Of a stretch of DNA of 64,000 bases, positions 40,888 through 58,218 are shown piece by piece. Positions within the stretch are counted from its first letter, which is position 1, and each line of letters starts with the position of its first letter. The position numbers were made by a program, and so were the translations under genes. Source of the stretch: Inediibacterium massiliense (lineage in GTDB: Bacteria; Bacillota; Clostridia; Peptostreptococcales; Thermotaleaceae); contig NZ_LN876586.1 of assembly GCF_001282725.1 (NCBI RefSeq), positions 459,009 through 523,008 of the forward strand, read 5' to 3'. Under the pieces are notes generated by a model. The model saw only the letters and a program-made list of their open reading frames with translations. It was not told the DNA's origin and searched no databases.

Positions 40888-40934
40888 AGACTTTCCTCCT
40901 TGTTGGTCTCTCAGTACCAGTTTAAAGGTAAAAC

Positions 40935-41010
40935 AAAAAACCTTTTGACCTAAAAAGGTTAAAAGGCATAAGAAACTTAAAGTTGTGCCTTTTTAACCTC
41001 ACAGGGTTAA
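40935..41010 (-). promoter_or_regulatory. PyrR-dependent transcription attenuator of pyrBI
   Basis: Three mutually exclusive structures are visible on the minus strand. The PyrR-binding hairpin TTAACC-CTGTGA-GGTTAA (40993-41010) contains AACCCTGTGAGGTT, one base from the PyrR consensus. The antiterminator is AGGTTAAAAAGGC with GCCTTTTAACCT, and the terminator is AACCTTTTTAGGTCAAAAGG followed by TTTTTT (about 40935-40960). High UMP would favour PyrR binding and termination. Confidence 0.88.
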
Positions 41011-41035
41011 TTTAAAGGAATTATTATTTTAATTT

Positions 41036-43074: not shown

Positions 43075-43106
43075 TTTTTCGACAAAATAAAATATCAATC
43101 TTGATG

Positions 43107-43252
43107 CCTTATCAAGAGTGGTGGAGGGACTAGGCCCGAAGAAACCCGGCAACCGGTATGCAACGCGGTGCTAAATCCTACAGAAATGATTTTCTGGAAG
43201 ATGAGGACAAATGAAATCTAACCTCTTCTTAAGTGTGAAGAGGTTTTTGTTT
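43107..43252 (+). promoter_or_regulatory. SAM-I (S-box) riboswitch and terminator
   Basis: P1 (CCTTATC 43107-43113 with GATGAGG 43200-43206) encloses the conserved GGAGGGACTAGGCCCGAAGA and AAACCCGGCAACC of the S-box. A terminator hairpin follows (AACCTCTTC / GAAGAGGTT, 43220-43246) with TTTTTG. With bound SAM, transcription should stop before metK. Confidence 0.95.
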
Positions 43253-53319: not shown

Positions 53320-53760
53320 ATGATACTAAACACCAAGCATTTTGGAGAAATAGAGATAGATGATCAAAAAATTATTGAATTTAAAGAAGGAATACCAGGG
53401 TTTGAAAATATAAAAAAATATACGATTATCACAAATCCAGAAAAGGAAGTGCCTTTTCATTGGCTACAAGCTATAGATGAGCCGGAGCTTACATTTGTCA
53501 TTACAAACCCTTTTTTATTTAAAAATGATTATGAATTTCATATTCCAGATAAAGTAATAGAAGAATTAAATATTGAAAAAGAAGAAGATTTAATGATTTT
53601 TACTATTGTAGTAATACCTGATGATATGAGTAAAATAACTATGAATACAAGAGCGCCTTTAGTAATTAATATGAAAAAGAAAAGTGGAAAACAACTATTA
53701 CTTGATGATGAAAAATATCCTCTCAAATATTATTTACTAGAGGAGGAAGGAGCATGTTAA
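53320..53760 (+). CDS. fliW: flagellar assembly factor FliW
   Basis: 146 residues with the family core (KHFGEIEIDDQKIIEFKEGI, PGFENIKKYTII). FliW binds either flagellin or the CsrA C-terminal extension and so couples flagellin synthesis to secretion. Its stop codon overlaps csrA, a conserved gene pair. Confidence 0.95.
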   Translation: MILNTKHFGEIEIDDQKIIEFKEGIPGFENIKKYTIITNPEKEVPFHWLQAIDEPELTFVITNPFLFKNDYEFHIPDKVIEELNIEKEEDLMIFTIVVIPDDMSKITMNTRAPLVINMKKKSGKQLLLDDEKYPLKYYLLEEEGAC

Positions 53761-53981
53761 TTTTAAGTAGAAAAAAAGATGAAAGTATTATCATAGATCA
53801 TAAAATGGAAATAAAAGTAATAAGTATAGAAGATGGAAAAGTAAGACTTGGGATCAATGCTCCTAAAGAAATAGATATATATAGAAAAGAAGTATATATA
53901 GAAATAGAAGAAGAAAATAAGAAAGCTGCTATTGGAAAGCTTGATTTTGAAGGAATCAAAAATTTATTTAATAAAAAATGA
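53754..53981 (+). CDS. csrA: carbon storage regulator CsrA, long form
   Basis: 75 residues: the CsrA beta-core (MLILSRKKDESIIIDHKMEI, KVRLGINAPKEI, with the RNA-binding Arg44 in YRKEVY), followed by a ~25-residue C-terminal extension that in bacilli is the FliW contact. It represses flagellin translation by binding GGA hairpins in the leader. ATG overlaps the fliW stop codon by 7 nt. Confidence 0.95.
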   Translation: MLILSRKKDESIIIDHKMEIKVISIEDGKVRLGINAPKEIDIYRKEVYIEIEEENKKAAIGKLDFEGIKNLFNKK

Positions 53982-54010
53982 AAAAATTAATATTTTTTTA
54001 AAAAAAATGC

Positions 54011-54038
54011 TAAAGTATGAAAAAGATGTACCGATAAT
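54011..54038 (+). promoter_or_regulatory. sigma-D (sigma-28) promoter of the first flagellin gene
   Basis: TAAA (54011-54014), 16 bp, CCGATAAT (54031-54038). Confidence 0.7.
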
Positions 54039-54107
54039 AATAGTGTAAGTAAAAAAACATTCTTACATATAGGCCTATAGTAAGATTAACAACAAAATAA
54101 AATGATA

Positions 54108-54145
54108 GGACAGGATGTCCAACAAAAAACATTCAGGGAGGAATG
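54108..54145 (+). promoter_or_regulatory. two CsrA-binding hairpins in the first flagellin leader
   Basis: GGACAGGATGTCC (54108-54120) is a 4-bp hairpin showing AGGAT and contains ACAGGATGT, the preferred CsrA sequence. CATTC-AGGGAG-GAATG (54130-54145) puts the ribosome binding site in a second GGA loop. This is the two-site arrangement known for hag of Bacillus subtilis. Confidence 0.8.
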
Positions 54146-54149
54146 CATT

Positions 54150-55847
54150 ATGATAATCAATCACAATATGATGGCAATGAATACTCATAGACAAATGGGA
54201 ATCAATCAAGGAAATGGTTCTAAATCAATTGAAAAATTATCTTCAGGATTAAGAATCAACAGAGCTGGAGATGATGCAGCAGGTCTATCTATATCTGAAA
54301 AAATGAGAGCTCAAATTAGAGGATTAGATCAAGCATCAAGAAATGCTCAAGATGGTATTTCAATGATCCAAACTGCTGAAGGAGCACTTCAAGAAACACA
54401 TGCGATACTTCAAAGAATGAGAGAATTAGCAGTACAATCATCTTCTGATACAAACGTAGATGTAGACAGAGATGCAATACAAGGAGAGATTACTCAGCTT
54501 AAGAGTGAGATCGATCGTATTGGAGATACAACAGAATTCAATACAAAGAAACTTTTAAATGGAAATCTTTCATCCGCAGGTGCTGCAGGGGGAGTAAATG
54601 CAGTATCAGGTGCTCAAGTATTTAAACAAACAAGTGGTTCTTTAACTGGTGTAGCTGCAGCAGCTGTAAATGCAAGTGGAGCAAACCTTGATATGACAGC
54701 TAAAGATGCATTAGTAATTGATGGAGAAAAAATTACAATTGATTGGAATAAACATTTAACAGCAGAAGATAAAGCAGTTTTAAATGCGGATTACAGTACA
54801 ACTAACTTAGATGCAACTACTAGTGGAAAAGTTAGAGATATTATGGAACGTGTGATCAATGCTTCTATTGATGAATCAGGTACAGGAGCAAGTCACATCA
54901 AAATAACAGATTCAACAGCAGGAACATTCAAAATTGAAAGCACTGCTGAAGGAAATGATTCAAAAGTTGAACTTTATCATGGTACTGACGGAGCTGCAAC
55001 AGCTAAATTAGCAGATGGTACTACTACAGCAGTAGGAGCTAAATCAGTTCTAAGCTTATATGTAGGTGCAAATGCTGAAATGGCAGGAGGAGCTGTTACT
55101 CAAACTTCTGGAACAAATCAAGTATTAGACGCTATGGCAGGTACAGATAAATTCCAATTATCTATTGATGGACATACAATGGAAATTACTTCACCAGTAG
55201 CAGCAGCGGGTTCTGATGCGAACACATATGCTACTGCATTACAAACAGCTATCAATACTGCAATTGGAAACTACAACACGGCAGCAGGATTTACATCTGA
55301 AGAGCAAAAAATTAAAGATGTTGCTGTAAGTGTTGAAAATGGAAGATTAACAATTTCTAGTCCAAGTGGTCCTGTAGACCTTCAAGATGTTACAAATGGA
55401 GATGCATTATCAAAATTAGGTCTTGATCAAGCTTCTAGACAAAGTGGAGCTACAGGTGCAGTTACATTCCAAATCGGTGCAAATAAAGGACAAACTATGG
55501 GATTATCCATTAATGATATGAGAACTGGTGCTCTTGGAATCAATGGAATTGATTTAAGTACACAAACAGGTGCTTCTGAATCTATTACAAAACTTGAAAC
55601 TGCAATTAAAAATGTATCTTCTGAACGTTCTAAATTAGGAGCTGTTCAAAATAGATTAGAGCATACAATTAAGAACTTAGATACATCTTCTGAAAACCTA
55701 CAAGCATCTGAATCTAGAATCAGAGACGTAGATATGGCAAAAGAAATGATGTCATTCCAAAAGAATAACATCTTACAACAAGCAGCTCAAGCAATGCTTG
55801 CGCAAGCTAATCAGGCTCCTCAAGGAGTACTTCAATTATTAAGATAG
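54150..55847 (+). CDS. hag: flagellin, first copy
   Basis: 565 residues from ATG 54150. The conserved ends ([40 protein letters not shown], and a C-terminal [16 protein letters not shown]-type helix) form D0/D1 and are nearly identical to the second flagellin. The middle (about 165-455) is a long, alanine- and threonine-rich variable domain unlike that of the other copy. Expression is expected from sigma-28 with CsrA/FliW translational control. Confidence 0.96.
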   Translation: MIINHNMMAMNTHRQMGINQGNGSKSIEKLSSGLRINRAGDDAAGLSISEKMRAQIRGLDQASRNAQDGISMIQTAEGALQETHAILQRMRELAVQSSSDTNVDVDRDAIQGEITQLKSEIDRIGDTTEFNTKKLLNGNLSSAGAAGGVNAVSGAQVFKQTSGSLTGVAAAAVNASGANLDMTAKDALVIDGEKITIDWNKHLTAEDKAVLNADYSTTNLDATTSGKVRDIMERVINASIDESGTGASHIKITDSTAGTFKIESTAEGNDSKVELYHGTDGAATAKLADGTTTAVGAKSVLSLYVGANAEMAGGAVTQTSGTNQVLDAMAGTDKFQLSIDGHTMEITSPVAAAGSDANTYATALQTAINTAIGNYNTAAGFTSEEQKIKDVAVSVENGRLTISSPSGPVDLQDVTNGDALSKLGLDQASRQSGATGAVTFQIGANKGQTMGLSINDMRTGALGINGIDLSTQTGASESITKLETAIKNVSSERSKLGAVQNRLEHTIKNLDTSSENLQASESRIRDVDMAKEMMSFQKNNILQQAAQAMLAQANQAPQGVLQLLR

Positions 55848-55880
55848 ATAATTTAAATATTTAGATTTCCTTTTGAAGAT

Positions 55881-56014
55881 CATTCATGGACGAATGAGAT
55901 GATTCAGGGACGAATAAAAAAAATAATAAGGGCATAACTCAGGGACGAGTTGATATCATCTATACAATTTGCAGGACGCAAAGAAGTATAGGTGTATTGA
56001 CTCGTCTTTTGTTT
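55881..56014 (+). ncRNA. GGA-hairpin RNA 1: candidate CsrA sponge / attenuator in the flagellin 3' region
   Basis: Four small hairpins present GGA: CATTC-ATGGAC-GAATG (55881-55896), ATTC-AGGGAC-GAAT (55902-55915), AACTC-AGGGAC-GAGTT (55936-55951) and TTTGC-AGGAC-GCAAA (55968-55982). GACGAGT (55944-55950), part of the third hairpin, can also pair with ACTCGTC (56000-56006) before TTTTG, closing a terminator that also contains CTATAC / GTATAG. The third hairpin and the terminator base therefore exclude each other. No gene overlaps. Confidence 0.65.
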
Positions 56015-56222
56015 ATTAAAATTCTTTATTCGGATAGGAATGAATTGGTTAAATGGGTCAATTCATTCCTAAGGAAAAAAAATATATTTACCAGCAAATA
56101 TGACATGTTTCGACAAAAATATTTAGTATTATATATATGGTTCTAAAGCATGAGTAAAATTAAGACCATAGAACTATACATATAACACTAAAAATATAGA
56201 AATCATTCAAGGAGGAAGAAAT

Positions 56223-56396
56223 ATGTTAGTTATAGGCAGGAAGCCAGGAGAATATGTAGTAATCAATGAAAATATCAAAGTAAAGGTAGTCAAAAGCAAT
56301 GATGGTGATTTAAGACTAGCCATTGATGCACCGAGGGAAGTAAGAATTGTTCGTGGAGAATTATACGAACAAGAACAAATGGAGTTAGCAAAATAA
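56223..56396 (+). CDS. second CsrA, short form without C-terminal extension
   Basis: 57 residues. MLVIGRKPGEYVVINENIKV, LRLAIDAPREV and RIVRGELYEQEQ keep the CsrA fold and Arg44. The protein ends at residue 57, so it lacks the extension present in the other CsrA. ATG 56223 has a perfect CAAGGAGG. It lies alone between the two flagellin genes with a structured GGA RNA on each side. A FliW-independent CsrA paralog is the likely reading. Confidence 0.9.
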   Translation: MLVIGRKPGEYVVINENIKVKVVKSNDGDLRLAIDAPREVRIVRGELYEQEQMELAK

Positions 56397-56406
56397 AAAA
56401 AGATCA

Positions 56407-56488
56407 AACTCAGGGACGAGTTGAATTTTATGGATTTATTAGCAGGATGCTATATAAATTCATAAGTTTCAGTTCGTCTTTTTGTTTA
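56407..56488 (+). ncRNA. GGA-hairpin RNA 2: candidate CsrA-controlled attenuator after the second csrA
   Basis: AACTC-AGGGAC-GAGTT (56407-56422) competes with a terminator whose base is GACGAGTTGAA (56415-56425) paired with TTCAGTTCGTC (56468-56478) before TTTTT. The terminator arm continues as TATGGATTTA / TAAATTCATA and ends in the apical hairpin TAGC-AGGAT-GCTA. The architecture equals RNA 1, while the inner arm sequences differ with pairing kept. Confidence 0.68.
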
Positions 56489-56496
56489 GATATTTT

Positions 56497-56525
56497 AAGC
56501 TTCATCATCCTAGGCGATGAAGCTT
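56497..56525. promoter_or_regulatory. inverted repeat upstream of the second flagellin gene
   Basis: AAGCTTCATC / GATGAAGCTT, a perfect 10-bp stem without T tract, 65 bp before the start codon. Function unknown; an operator or leader hairpin. Confidence 0.5.
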
Positions 56526-56545
56526 ATCATATAAATAAATTTATA

Positions 56546-56563
56546 GTGAGAAAGGAAGCTCAC
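56546..56563 (+). promoter_or_regulatory. possible CsrA site in the second flagellin leader
   Basis: GTGAG-AAAGGAAG-CTCAC shows GGA in the loop of a 5-bp hairpin. The ribosome binding site TTCAAGGAGGGAA is only weakly structured. Confidence 0.5.
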
Positions 56564-56589
56564 ATTTAAAATTCAAGGAGGGAAATATT

Positions 56590-58218
56590 ATGATTATCAA
56601 TCACAATATGATGGCTATGAACACTCATAGACAAATGGGTATCAACACAAACACTGGAGCAAAATCAATCGAAAAATTATCTTCAGGATTAAGAATCAAT
56701 AGAGCAGGAGATGACGCAGCAGGACTTTCTATCTCTGAAAAGATGAGAGCACAAATTAGAGGATTAAACCAAGCATCAAGAAATGGTCAAGATGGTATTT
56801 CAATGATTCAAACTGCAGAAGGAGCACTTCAAGAAACTCAAGCAATCCTTCAAAGAATGAGAGAACTTGCAGTTCAATCTTCAAATGATACAAACGTTGA
56901 AATTGATCGTGGTGCTATTCAAGGAGAAATTAAACAATTAAAAAATGAAATTGATAGAATTGGTAATACAACTGAGTTTAATACACAAAGTCTTTTAAAG
57001 GGTGATGGAAGTTCAAGCTTAGATAAAACGGGTCTTGTAACTAAATCAAACTTAACTGGTGGAGATGTGACTCATACTGATGCAACACAAGCACTTAAGG
57101 TAGGATCTGCATTTGTTAAAGGAGATACTGTTAAGCTTAACTTAAATGGAGAAGAAGTTACGATTACTTTTGCAGATACAGCTGATAATGGAAAAGGAGC
57201 AGCAAAAGTATTTGATGTAACTGGTAAATCTGCTACAGTAAACTTAGCTGCATCAGCAGATGCAACAACTTCTGCAACTGCAATCAAAGATGCGTTAACA
57301 AAGGTAATTGCAGCAAATGATAAATTAGCTGGAAATTATACTGTTGCTGCAAGTGGAGATACAGCTACTATAACAGCTGGAGGAGATTTTGAAGGTTCTA
57401 AAGGGTTTATAGGAGCATCTACTATAGGAGGATCAGGAACAGTTACTGGAGGAACAGATTCAATAGGAACTACAGTATATGATAAGGCAAGTGGAACAAT
57501 AGATTTTAGTTCTGTTTCTACAGATGCTAAATTAGAAGATTTAATTAAAAAAGGAATTACTATTAATGGACAAAAGGTAGAATTTTATAATGCGAATGAT
57601 GGAGCTTATAAAGGAGATGCTGTAGGAGTTAACATTTCTGATGCTTTAGCGGCAACTGCTAGTAAAGAAGTAGCTCTTTCTAAAGCTATTGCTGATCAAT
57701 TAGGAGACAAATTAGATGGAGTTTCAGTTACAGACAATACAGATGGTACATTAACAATTACTGCTAAAGAAGGTGGAAAAGCAGGAAATGATATTACTGT
57801 ATCTGATGGTGGAGTTCAAGAAGATTTTAAAGCAAGTTTCCAAATTGGTTCAAATGAAGGTCAAACTATGGAAATTAGTATAGGGGATATGAGAGCAGAT
57901 GCGTTAGGTATTAAGGATGTTGATTTATCAACAAGAGAAGATGCACAAAAAGCTATTACTACACTTGAAAGTGCAATAGCTTCAGTATCTGCTCAACGTT
58001 CTGAACTTGGAGCATTCCAAAATAGATTAGAGCACACAATCAAAAACTTAGATACATCAGCTGAAAACCTACAAGCATCTGAATCAAGAATCAGAGACGT
58101 AGATATGGCAAAAGAAATGATGTCATTCCAAAAGAATAACATCTTACAACAAGCAGCTCAAGCAATGCTAGCTCAAGCTAATCAGGCTCCTCAGGGAGTA
58201 CTTCAATTATTAAGATAA
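56590..58218 (+). CDS. flagellin, second copy
   Basis: 542 residues. The first ~145 and last ~100 residues are nearly identical to the first flagellin, while the central domain (about 150-440) is unrelated in sequence though similar in composition. Both copies retain the secretion and polymerisation helices, so filaments may be mixed or the copies differently regulated. A simple strong terminator (GAGGGTCAGAGGA / TCCTCTGGCTC, 58238-58275) follows. Confidence 0.95.

Follow-up and report, generated by a model that had tools for sequence, protein, structure and literature searches.

An RNA element combining CsrA-type GGA hairpins with an intrinsic terminator beside csrA and flagellin genes of Clostridia: a candidate CsrA-responsive attenuator

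Here we report that two predicted RNAs, RNA 1 and RNA 2, encoded beside the csrA and flagellin genes of Inediibacterium massiliense, are copies of one element, which computational searches recover from two orders of Clostridia, next to csrA or flagellin genes and together with extra csrA genes. In the element a GGA hairpin (a:b) and an intrinsic terminator (b:c) overlap: arm b forms the 3' side of the hairpin and also the 5' side of the terminator, so that the two structures are mutually exclusive. We consider it likely that the element is a transcription attenuator that responds to CsrA and is tied to a second CsrA protein, CsrA2.

In gammaproteobacteria, CsrB-type RNAs titrate CsrA, and Firmicutes use the protein FliW. 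The RNAs CsrB, CsrC, RsmY and RsmZ carry GGA hairpins and have an intrinsic terminator at their end. The classic high-affinity CsrA site is an A(N)GGA motif in a loop closed by a C-G pair.

Two copies of one element at the csrA locus

A genome search found two csrA genes in this organism, both at one locus of the window (the whole 64-kb stretch of DNA that was analysed), where the + strand order is fliW, csrA1, hag1, RNA 1, csrA2, RNA 2, hag2 (Table 1). The translated csrA1 product has I51 and N55. The start of hag1 was taken at MIINHN (54150), the listed open reading frame beginning at 54102, and its promoter was called against what we take to be the sigma-D consensus. The fliW-csrA1-hag1 order and the BS1/BS2-like sites in the hag leader are as in the Hag-FliW-CsrA partner switch of Bacillus subtilis; unlike in that system, the locus here also has genes for a second, short CsrA2 and for attenuator-like RNAs. 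The two hairpins of the hag1 leader resemble the layout predicted for C. difficile fliC (PMC8523840).

Table 1. Positions of genes, promoters and RNA structures at the csrA locus, in coordinates of the window
Feature	Position	Strand	Basis
fliW	53320..53760	+	NCBIfam FliW NF009798, E 5.7e-66
csrA1, 75 aa, with C-terminal extension	53754..53981	+	NCBIfam csrA equivalog, above cut-off
sigma-D-like promoter of hag1, TAAA-N17-CGATAA	54011..54037	+	read from sequence
CsrA-type hairpin in hag1 leader, BS1-like	54108..54120	+	hairpin scan
CsrA-type hairpin covering hag1 Shine-Dalgarno, BS2-like	54130..54145	+	hairpin scan
hag1 flagellin	54150..55847	+	ORF; tblastn matches in relatives
RNA 1 GGA hairpin 1, TCATTC-ATGGAC-GAATGA	55880..55897	+	hairpin scan
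RNA 1 GGA hairpin 2, ATTC-AGGGAC-GAAT	55902..55915	+	hairpin scan
RNA 1 GGA hairpin 3, putative antiterminator a:b, AACTC-AGGGAC-GAGTT	55936..55951	+	scan, conservation, folding
RNA 1 apical GGA hairpin of terminator, TTTGC-AGGAC-GCAAA	55968..55982	+	folding, scan
RNA 1 intrinsic terminator	55941..56014	+	folding; c arm 56000-56006, U-rich tail 56007-56014
Inverted repeat, perfect 11 bp, between RNA 1 and csrA2	56037..56069	+	sequence
Putative own promoter of csrA2, TTCGACA...TATATA	56109..56137	+	block conserved in L041, L045
Short GGA hairpin covering csrA2 Shine-Dalgarno, TTC-AAGGAG-GAA	56206..56217	+	sequence
csrA2, 57 aa, without C-terminal extension	56223..56396	+	ORF, family match
RNA 2 a:b hairpin, putative antiterminator, AACTC-AGGGAC-GAGTT	56407..56422	+	scan, conservation, folding
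RNA 2 apical GGA hairpin, TAGC-AGGAT-GCTA	56440..56452	+	folding, scan
RNA 2 intrinsic terminator	56412..56487	+	folding; c arm 56471-56478, then U-rich tail
hag2 leader hairpin, GTGAG-AAAGGAAG-CTCAC	56546..56563	+	read by eye, unscored
hag2 flagellin	56590..58218	+	ORF

In both RNAs arm a is AACTC, arm b is GAGTT and arm c is ACTCGTC or AGTTCGTC, followed by U; the a:b loop is AGGGAC, and a second GGA hairpin stands at the tip of the b:c terminator. An earlier note on this DNA had read four GGA loops in RNA 1 and two in RNA 2, and these are present at 55886-55891, 55906-55911, 55941-55946 and 55973-55977 and at 56412-56417 and 56444-56448, respectively. It had also described an AACTC-AGGGAC-GAGTT hairpin having bases in common with the terminator foot, which proved to be the shared 3' arm, and a GGA hairpin capping the terminator, which we find in RNA 1 and RNA 2 alike.

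Hairpins of this kind are far more frequent here than expected by chance. With a strict definition (C-A(N)GGA(N)-G on a stem of four or more Watson-Crick pairs) and dinucleotide shuffles as the null, the + strand of the window holds eight, compared with a mean of 1.4 and a maximum of 4 in 30 shuffles, and all eight belong to the hag1 leader (two), RNA 1 (four) and RNA 2 (two); the two on the - strand lie elsewhere than the csrA locus. In the interval 55848-56490 there are six, against a mean of 0.014 and a maximum of 1 in 2000 shuffles, and the folding z scores of RNA 1 and RNA 2 relative to shuffles are -5.4 and -7.5. No family of Rfam 15 matches the element. At gathering score the Csr/Rsm families had no match in the window or in 11 homologous loci, and in a search of 53700-56700 at E values up to 5 the only returns were two microRNA models matching RNA 2 and a single SAM-SAH model, all far below gathering scores. 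The window also contains a SAM riboswitch and a PyrR binding site, at 43106-43207 and 40933-41022 (- strand), respectively.

Folding illustrates the exclusion of the two structures. When the transcript is cut about 28 nt before the element end, as a pre-terminator fold, the first GGA of the element (GGA1) is, in both window RNAs, unpaired with a probability of at least 0.99, and in the full fold with a probability of at most 0.002. Among the 57 elements collected below, GGA1 exposure before the c arm exceeds one half in 49 and unpaired probability in the full fold is below 0.1 in 51; a:b is the favoured pre-terminator fold in 43 and not so in 14. The a:b hairpin is short (median of 4 nested pairs) and the terminator fold strong (median -33.4 kcal/mol). 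Since the antiterminator state is weaker than the terminator fold by a median of 13.4 kcal/mol across the 57, antitermination could only work co-transcriptionally.

Some further features of the locus deserve mention. The inverted repeat between RNA 1 and csrA2 is without a U tract, and L041 and L045 (homologous loci, see below) have one in a similar place with a different sequence. The TTCGACA motif at 56109-56115, presumably the reverse complement of a Spo0A box, also precedes csrA2 in L041 and L045, a possible link to sporulation. A GGA hairpin at the csrA2 Shine-Dalgarno recurs in L149, L153, L155 and L157. The hag2 leader hairpin has counterparts with changed stems in other hag2 leaders (by eye, unscored); several hag2 leaders (56497-56563 in the window) have in common one hairpin, an A/T-rich TATAAATAA-like stretch and a further hairpin, with loop AAAGGA(A/T)G on a stem that differs by genome, which may be another CsrA site.

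Distribution, gene context and conservation

Homologous loci were gathered in two ways. The fliW loci from 40 of 48 other FliW-bearing genomes (78 genomes searched) were read without an RNA model; L041 and L045 have the same order, hag1-RNA 1-csrA2-RNA 2-hag2, and L062, from a genome with one csrA, has a single copy after csrA1. A same-genus genome (G001) showed no element at its fliW locus (L035) and no match elsewhere in the genome to the covariance model R1. This model was built from 7 sequences and, like its successor R2, scores the RNA alone. It scored RNA 1 at 89.5 bits (55936-56015) and RNA 2 at 78.5 bits (56407-56487), and these were the only matches in the organism's own genome, the next being RNA 2 on its reverse strand at E 3.8.

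Among 393 genomes of the order, R1 found matches in 12 (E <= 0.01), in 11 of which csrA adjoins. Eight of the nine new loci have adjoining csrA2-like genes, frequently arranged as csrA2-element-csrA2'-element-hag; L107 (G119), with no csrA nearby, was judged a false match. The R2 model was built on 27 rows, two of them from the reverse strand and some of them duplicates. It matched 3 of 391 genomes of the class, the organism's own among them, and the own genome alone in a phylum sample (1 of 299). In a second order it matched 18 of 194 genomes (E <= 0.001), 17 with adjoining csrA2; the match at L164 (G768), with no csrA nearby, was likewise judged false. The covariance-model search in related genomes that the earlier note had proposed thus places the element in two orders of Clostridia, in both of which the majority of genomes are without it. 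From 75 alignment rows we kept 57 elements in 28 genomes, the 18 dropped rows being duplicates, reverse-strand matches, L164 and one weak L152 row lacking GGA.

Eight second-order genomes with several csrA genes and no match were re-examined with laxer filters. In G880 and G909 the element lies just 5' of a short csrA gene; in G909 (L179) an in-frame stop breaks this gene and the adjoining element persists. In G798, matches at E 2.4e-4 and 0.028 flank csrA by coordinates. No element was detected in the loci searched in G781, G793, G875 and G934, nor in G892, which has a short csrA before flagellin. Another genome, G277, holds nine csrA matches (L120, L125, L127, L128, L130, L132-L135), the copies read (L125, L128, L132, L133, L134 reverse strand) being near-identical and short; at L125 and L134 csrA directly precedes flagellin, and no element was detected in the nine loci.

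The gene following the element is csrA in 31 of the 57 cases and flagellin in 23 (54 together). For 19 elements in 18 genomes the csrA2 start lies 20-43 nt past the element end; since this distance fits a ribosome site and hardly a promoter, csrA2 transcripts in those 18 genomes very likely pass the terminator. The element has two exclusive hairpins sharing an arm, one of them an intrinsic terminator, and that terminator lies between promoter and regulated gene, given the 19 elements preceding csrA2 and the sigma-D-like motif upstream of some; this order is less clear in the window, where csrA2 may have its own promoter. Sigma-D-like motifs occur within 250 nt upstream of 16 of the 57 elements, the same-strand background being 152 in 409,625 nt of loci, or about 0.09 per 250 nt. 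On the flagellin side, the best sigma-D-like and sigma-A-like matches in the RNA 2-hag2 interval of the window are no better than in shuffles, and the other intervals scored (three longer than 700 nt were left out) are mostly near shuffles, the exceptions including L101 and L156, whose sigma-D-like match has one mismatch against about two in shuffles. At L099 of G235, a c-di-GMP-II riboswitch (RF01786, 9337-9420, - strand) stands directly upstream of the first csrA2 of that genome, which suggests c-di-GMP control of csrA2 there.

Loss of the GGA motif in homologues, named by the earlier note as a ground for refutation, was not seen: A(N)GGA is present in the first loop of all 57 kept elements (57 of 58 if the dropped weak GGA-less match is counted), an invariance that is partly circular as the seeds were chosen by their GGA hairpins, which does not apply to the gene context of new matches. 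A C-G pair closes the first loop of every one of the 57, and this loop has six bases in 38 and five in 19; the 38 six-base loops match the CANGGANG hexaloop, which has been called high-affinity (PMC4894983). An apical GGA occurs in 51 elements and is absent in six; its spacing from GGA1 is most often 30, in 25 cases, followed by 31, in 11.

The five b:c pairs are formed in 285 of 285 cells with both sides changing, in alignments that were fitted to the b:c structure; 25 of these cells are G-U. The a:b pairing was no part of the covariance models, and its pairs, from the loop outward, are formed in 57, 55, 53, 45 and 28 of the 57 elements. At L099, for example, TAATC/GATTA/TTAATC replaces AACTC/GAGTT/ACTC. 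For the outer three a:b pairs of 39 distinct hairpins, 85 of 117 cells are paired against a mean of 68.4 on permutation of arm a (p 5e-5). In the first 23 elements (21 distinct rows, 500 shuffles), covariation was 0.246 versus 0.145 in shuffles (reached by 0/500) and paired cells 85.7% versus 80.4% (6/500), and two of the five measures, change on both sides (126/500) and further pair types (134/500), showed no excess over shuffles; slid controls were paired in 21-54% in the first element set. The inner-arm covariation that the earlier note had seen between RNA 1 and RNA 2 thus holds, and is larger across homologues.

The second CsrA and its co-occurrence with the element

The CsrA2 protein of the window scores 70.9 bits against PF02599 (cut-off 27) and 55 bits with NCBIfam, below the equivalog cut-offs of 70-73 bits, and has R6 and R44, which we take to be the RNA-contact residues of CsrA; it thus belongs to the CsrA family and keeps these residues. 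We read 89 distinct CsrA proteins from the loci, on the strand searched, and typed each by its better score against CsrA1 or CsrA2 of the window. The CsrA1 type comprises 47 proteins of 70-82 aa and the CsrA2 type 42 proteins of 47-68 aa, and in a tree of only 52 columns a single branch separates the two types (support 92/78; recovered in 94% of bootstrap trees). R44 is found in 47 of 47 CsrA1 and 39 of 42 CsrA2 proteins; the three exceptions come from G277 and are shorter by one residue ahead of this position.

The hallmark of a FliW-regulated CsrA, a C-terminal extension with V/I51 and N55 (residue roles as given in PMC7829508), is not that of the CsrA2 type: none of the 42 reaches 70 aa, and N stands at position 55 in 4 of 42, as against 44 of 47 CsrA1 proteins. 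In C. jejuni, removal of the last 20 CsrA residues is reported to almost abolish FliW binding, and the N55A protein to form no complex with FliW (PMC7829508). CsrA2 is therefore predicted from its sequence to be FliW-blind.

Element matches were obtained in 26 of 36 genomes with several csrA genes versus 4 of 287 with one, taking both orders together and still counting the judged-false G119 and G768 matches; genomes without csrA had no match in either order. The corresponding figures are 10 of 12 versus 2 of 148 in the first order and 16 of 24 versus 2 of 139 in the second (Fisher p 1.9e-12 and 1.8e-14, uncorrected for kinship). As for the four single-csrA matches, G119 and G768 look false, the only csrA detected in G882 is of the CsrA2 type, which leaves G067 as a genuine exception.

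Proposed control by CsrA and alternative explanations

In the mechanism that we propose, a and b would pair in the nascent RNA into a small hairpin whose C-G-closed loop displays A(N)GGA, and a second CsrA-type site would form about 30 nt downstream. Free CsrA (CsrA2, perhaps CsrA1) would bind, perhaps as a dimer bridging both sites, and hold arm b away from c, so that the terminator fails and transcription reads through into csrA2 or flagellin; with no free CsrA, b:c would zip up, burying the first GGA, and the transcript would end. As CsrA2 is without the FliW-binding extension, the RNA circuit may serve as the own control of a FliW-blind CsrA2. Terminated RNAs, chiefly the four-site RNA 1 at the hag1 mRNA end, may also titrate CsrA, and the GGA hairpin on the csrA2 Shine-Dalgarno could add translational autorepression. 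More tentatively, we put forward as a possibility that a FliW-blind CsrA2 would gate its own gene and the extra flagellins in a positive, possibly bistable, feedback, with the terminated RNAs titrating CsrA and FliW and RNA control working side by side.

The earlier note had suggested readthrough into csrA2 or the second flagellin gated by CsrA, or else released RNAs that sequester CsrA. We favour the gate because the terminator in 18 genomes immediately precedes csrA2 and leaves no apparent space for a promoter. The readthrough suggestion has to be narrowed for the window, where RNA 1 readthrough need not be the only source of csrA2 transcripts: conservation of the TTCGACA...TATATA block in L041 and L045 makes an additional promoter of csrA2 itself, downstream of RNA 1, probable, and readthrough from hag1 as its only source was dropped for this reason.

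In protein-dependent antiterminators such as the LicT/SacY RAT, an intrinsic terminator is blocked by an overlapping hairpin to which a protein is bound. The a:b hairpin likewise overlaps an intrinsic terminator and is proposed to be protein-bound; it differs from the RAT in its A(N)GGA motif, which would imply a protein of the CsrA type. In Legionella pneumophila, CsrA stabilises an antiterminator of the gap operon against Rho, as shown in vitro, and for the TPP riboswitch leader, whose Rho-independent terminator is predicted, an action of CsrA was proposed as a model (PMC5338858). As that report describes both cases, A(N)GGA alternates, as in our element, between burial with the terminator hairpin and exposure in a loop; gap termination, however, is Rho-dependent and inside the coding sequence, whereas the element has an intrinsic terminator, and its copies recur next to csrA and flagellin genes in two orders. 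E. coli CsrA is reported to promote Rho termination of pgaA (PMC7652899). A search of open-licence literature, mostly titles and abstract openings, found no report of this element. CsrA antitermination is thus known elsewhere, and what appears to be new is an intrinsic-terminator element at csrA and flagellin genes.

A different explanation is that the elements are mainly CsrB-like decoys, sigma-D-driven short RNAs or 3' UTR pieces that titrate CsrA, the terminator merely ending them. RNA 1 bears four to five GGA hairpins in the window and in L041 and L045, the leaders of L112, L113 and L163 have several after a sigma-D-like promoter, and the 16 elements with a sigma-D-like motif upstream would fit as well. 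There is also a precedent in the C. jejuni flaA mRNA, which titrates CsrA and whose leader, both target and sponge, resembles our case in being of a flagellin mRNA, in its GGA hexaloops and in the presence of FliW; the flaA sites, however, lie in the 5' leader, and the available text of the report describes no terminator switch (PMC4894983). Like CsrB, CsrC, RsmY and RsmZ, the element combines GGA hairpins with an intrinsic terminator at the end; unlike them, it occurs in Clostridia, is linked to csrA2 and hag, and typically has two sites, the first overlapping the terminator. GGA hairpins number four in RNA 1 and several in some leaders, so a sponge role is possible, but the typical element has two, one of them buried by the terminator, and a decoy has no need for an arm a that copies arm c, nor for a place 20-43 nt before csrA2. 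We consider it unlikely that titration is the main function.

Negative feedback on csrA is known in other systems, and CsrA might accordingly promote termination here, by binding the apical hairpin and helping the terminator nucleate or by blocking a competing upstream fold. The apical GGA, kept in 51 of 57 elements, is compatible with the terminator. GGA1, however, exists as a site only while b:c is open, and CsrA bound there must therefore oppose termination; moreover, the terminators are already strong. This makes a pro-termination role distinctly improbable in our view.

It is very improbable that these are ordinary terminators with chance GGA loops, conserved by common descent only. Terminators are expected downstream of hag and csrA, and the element is indeed built on one, but the excess of hairpins over shuffles rejects chance loops, the arms vary in sequence yet remain paired across two orders, and the terminator stands right before the csrA2 start. 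That the long inverted repeats beside flagellin genes act as DNA, as an invertible switch or a protein site, we find scarcely credible, given that the 25 G-U cells of b:c, G-T in DNA, pair as RNA and would break a DNA repeat, and that the U-rich tail and the GGA loops are on one strand.

A 2020 review (PMC7652899) described it as not yet determined, in whichever bacterial species, whether FliW and RNA control CsrA in one cell. If the attenuator proposed here is real, it would define a family of RNAs through which CsrA itself governs intrinsic termination, both at its own gene and at those of flagellins, in bacteria whose known CsrA antagonist is FliW, and the joint action of FliW and a Csr RNA would become directly testable. 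It would also help to account for the short second CsrA that these Clostridia have, and supply a covariance model for annotation.
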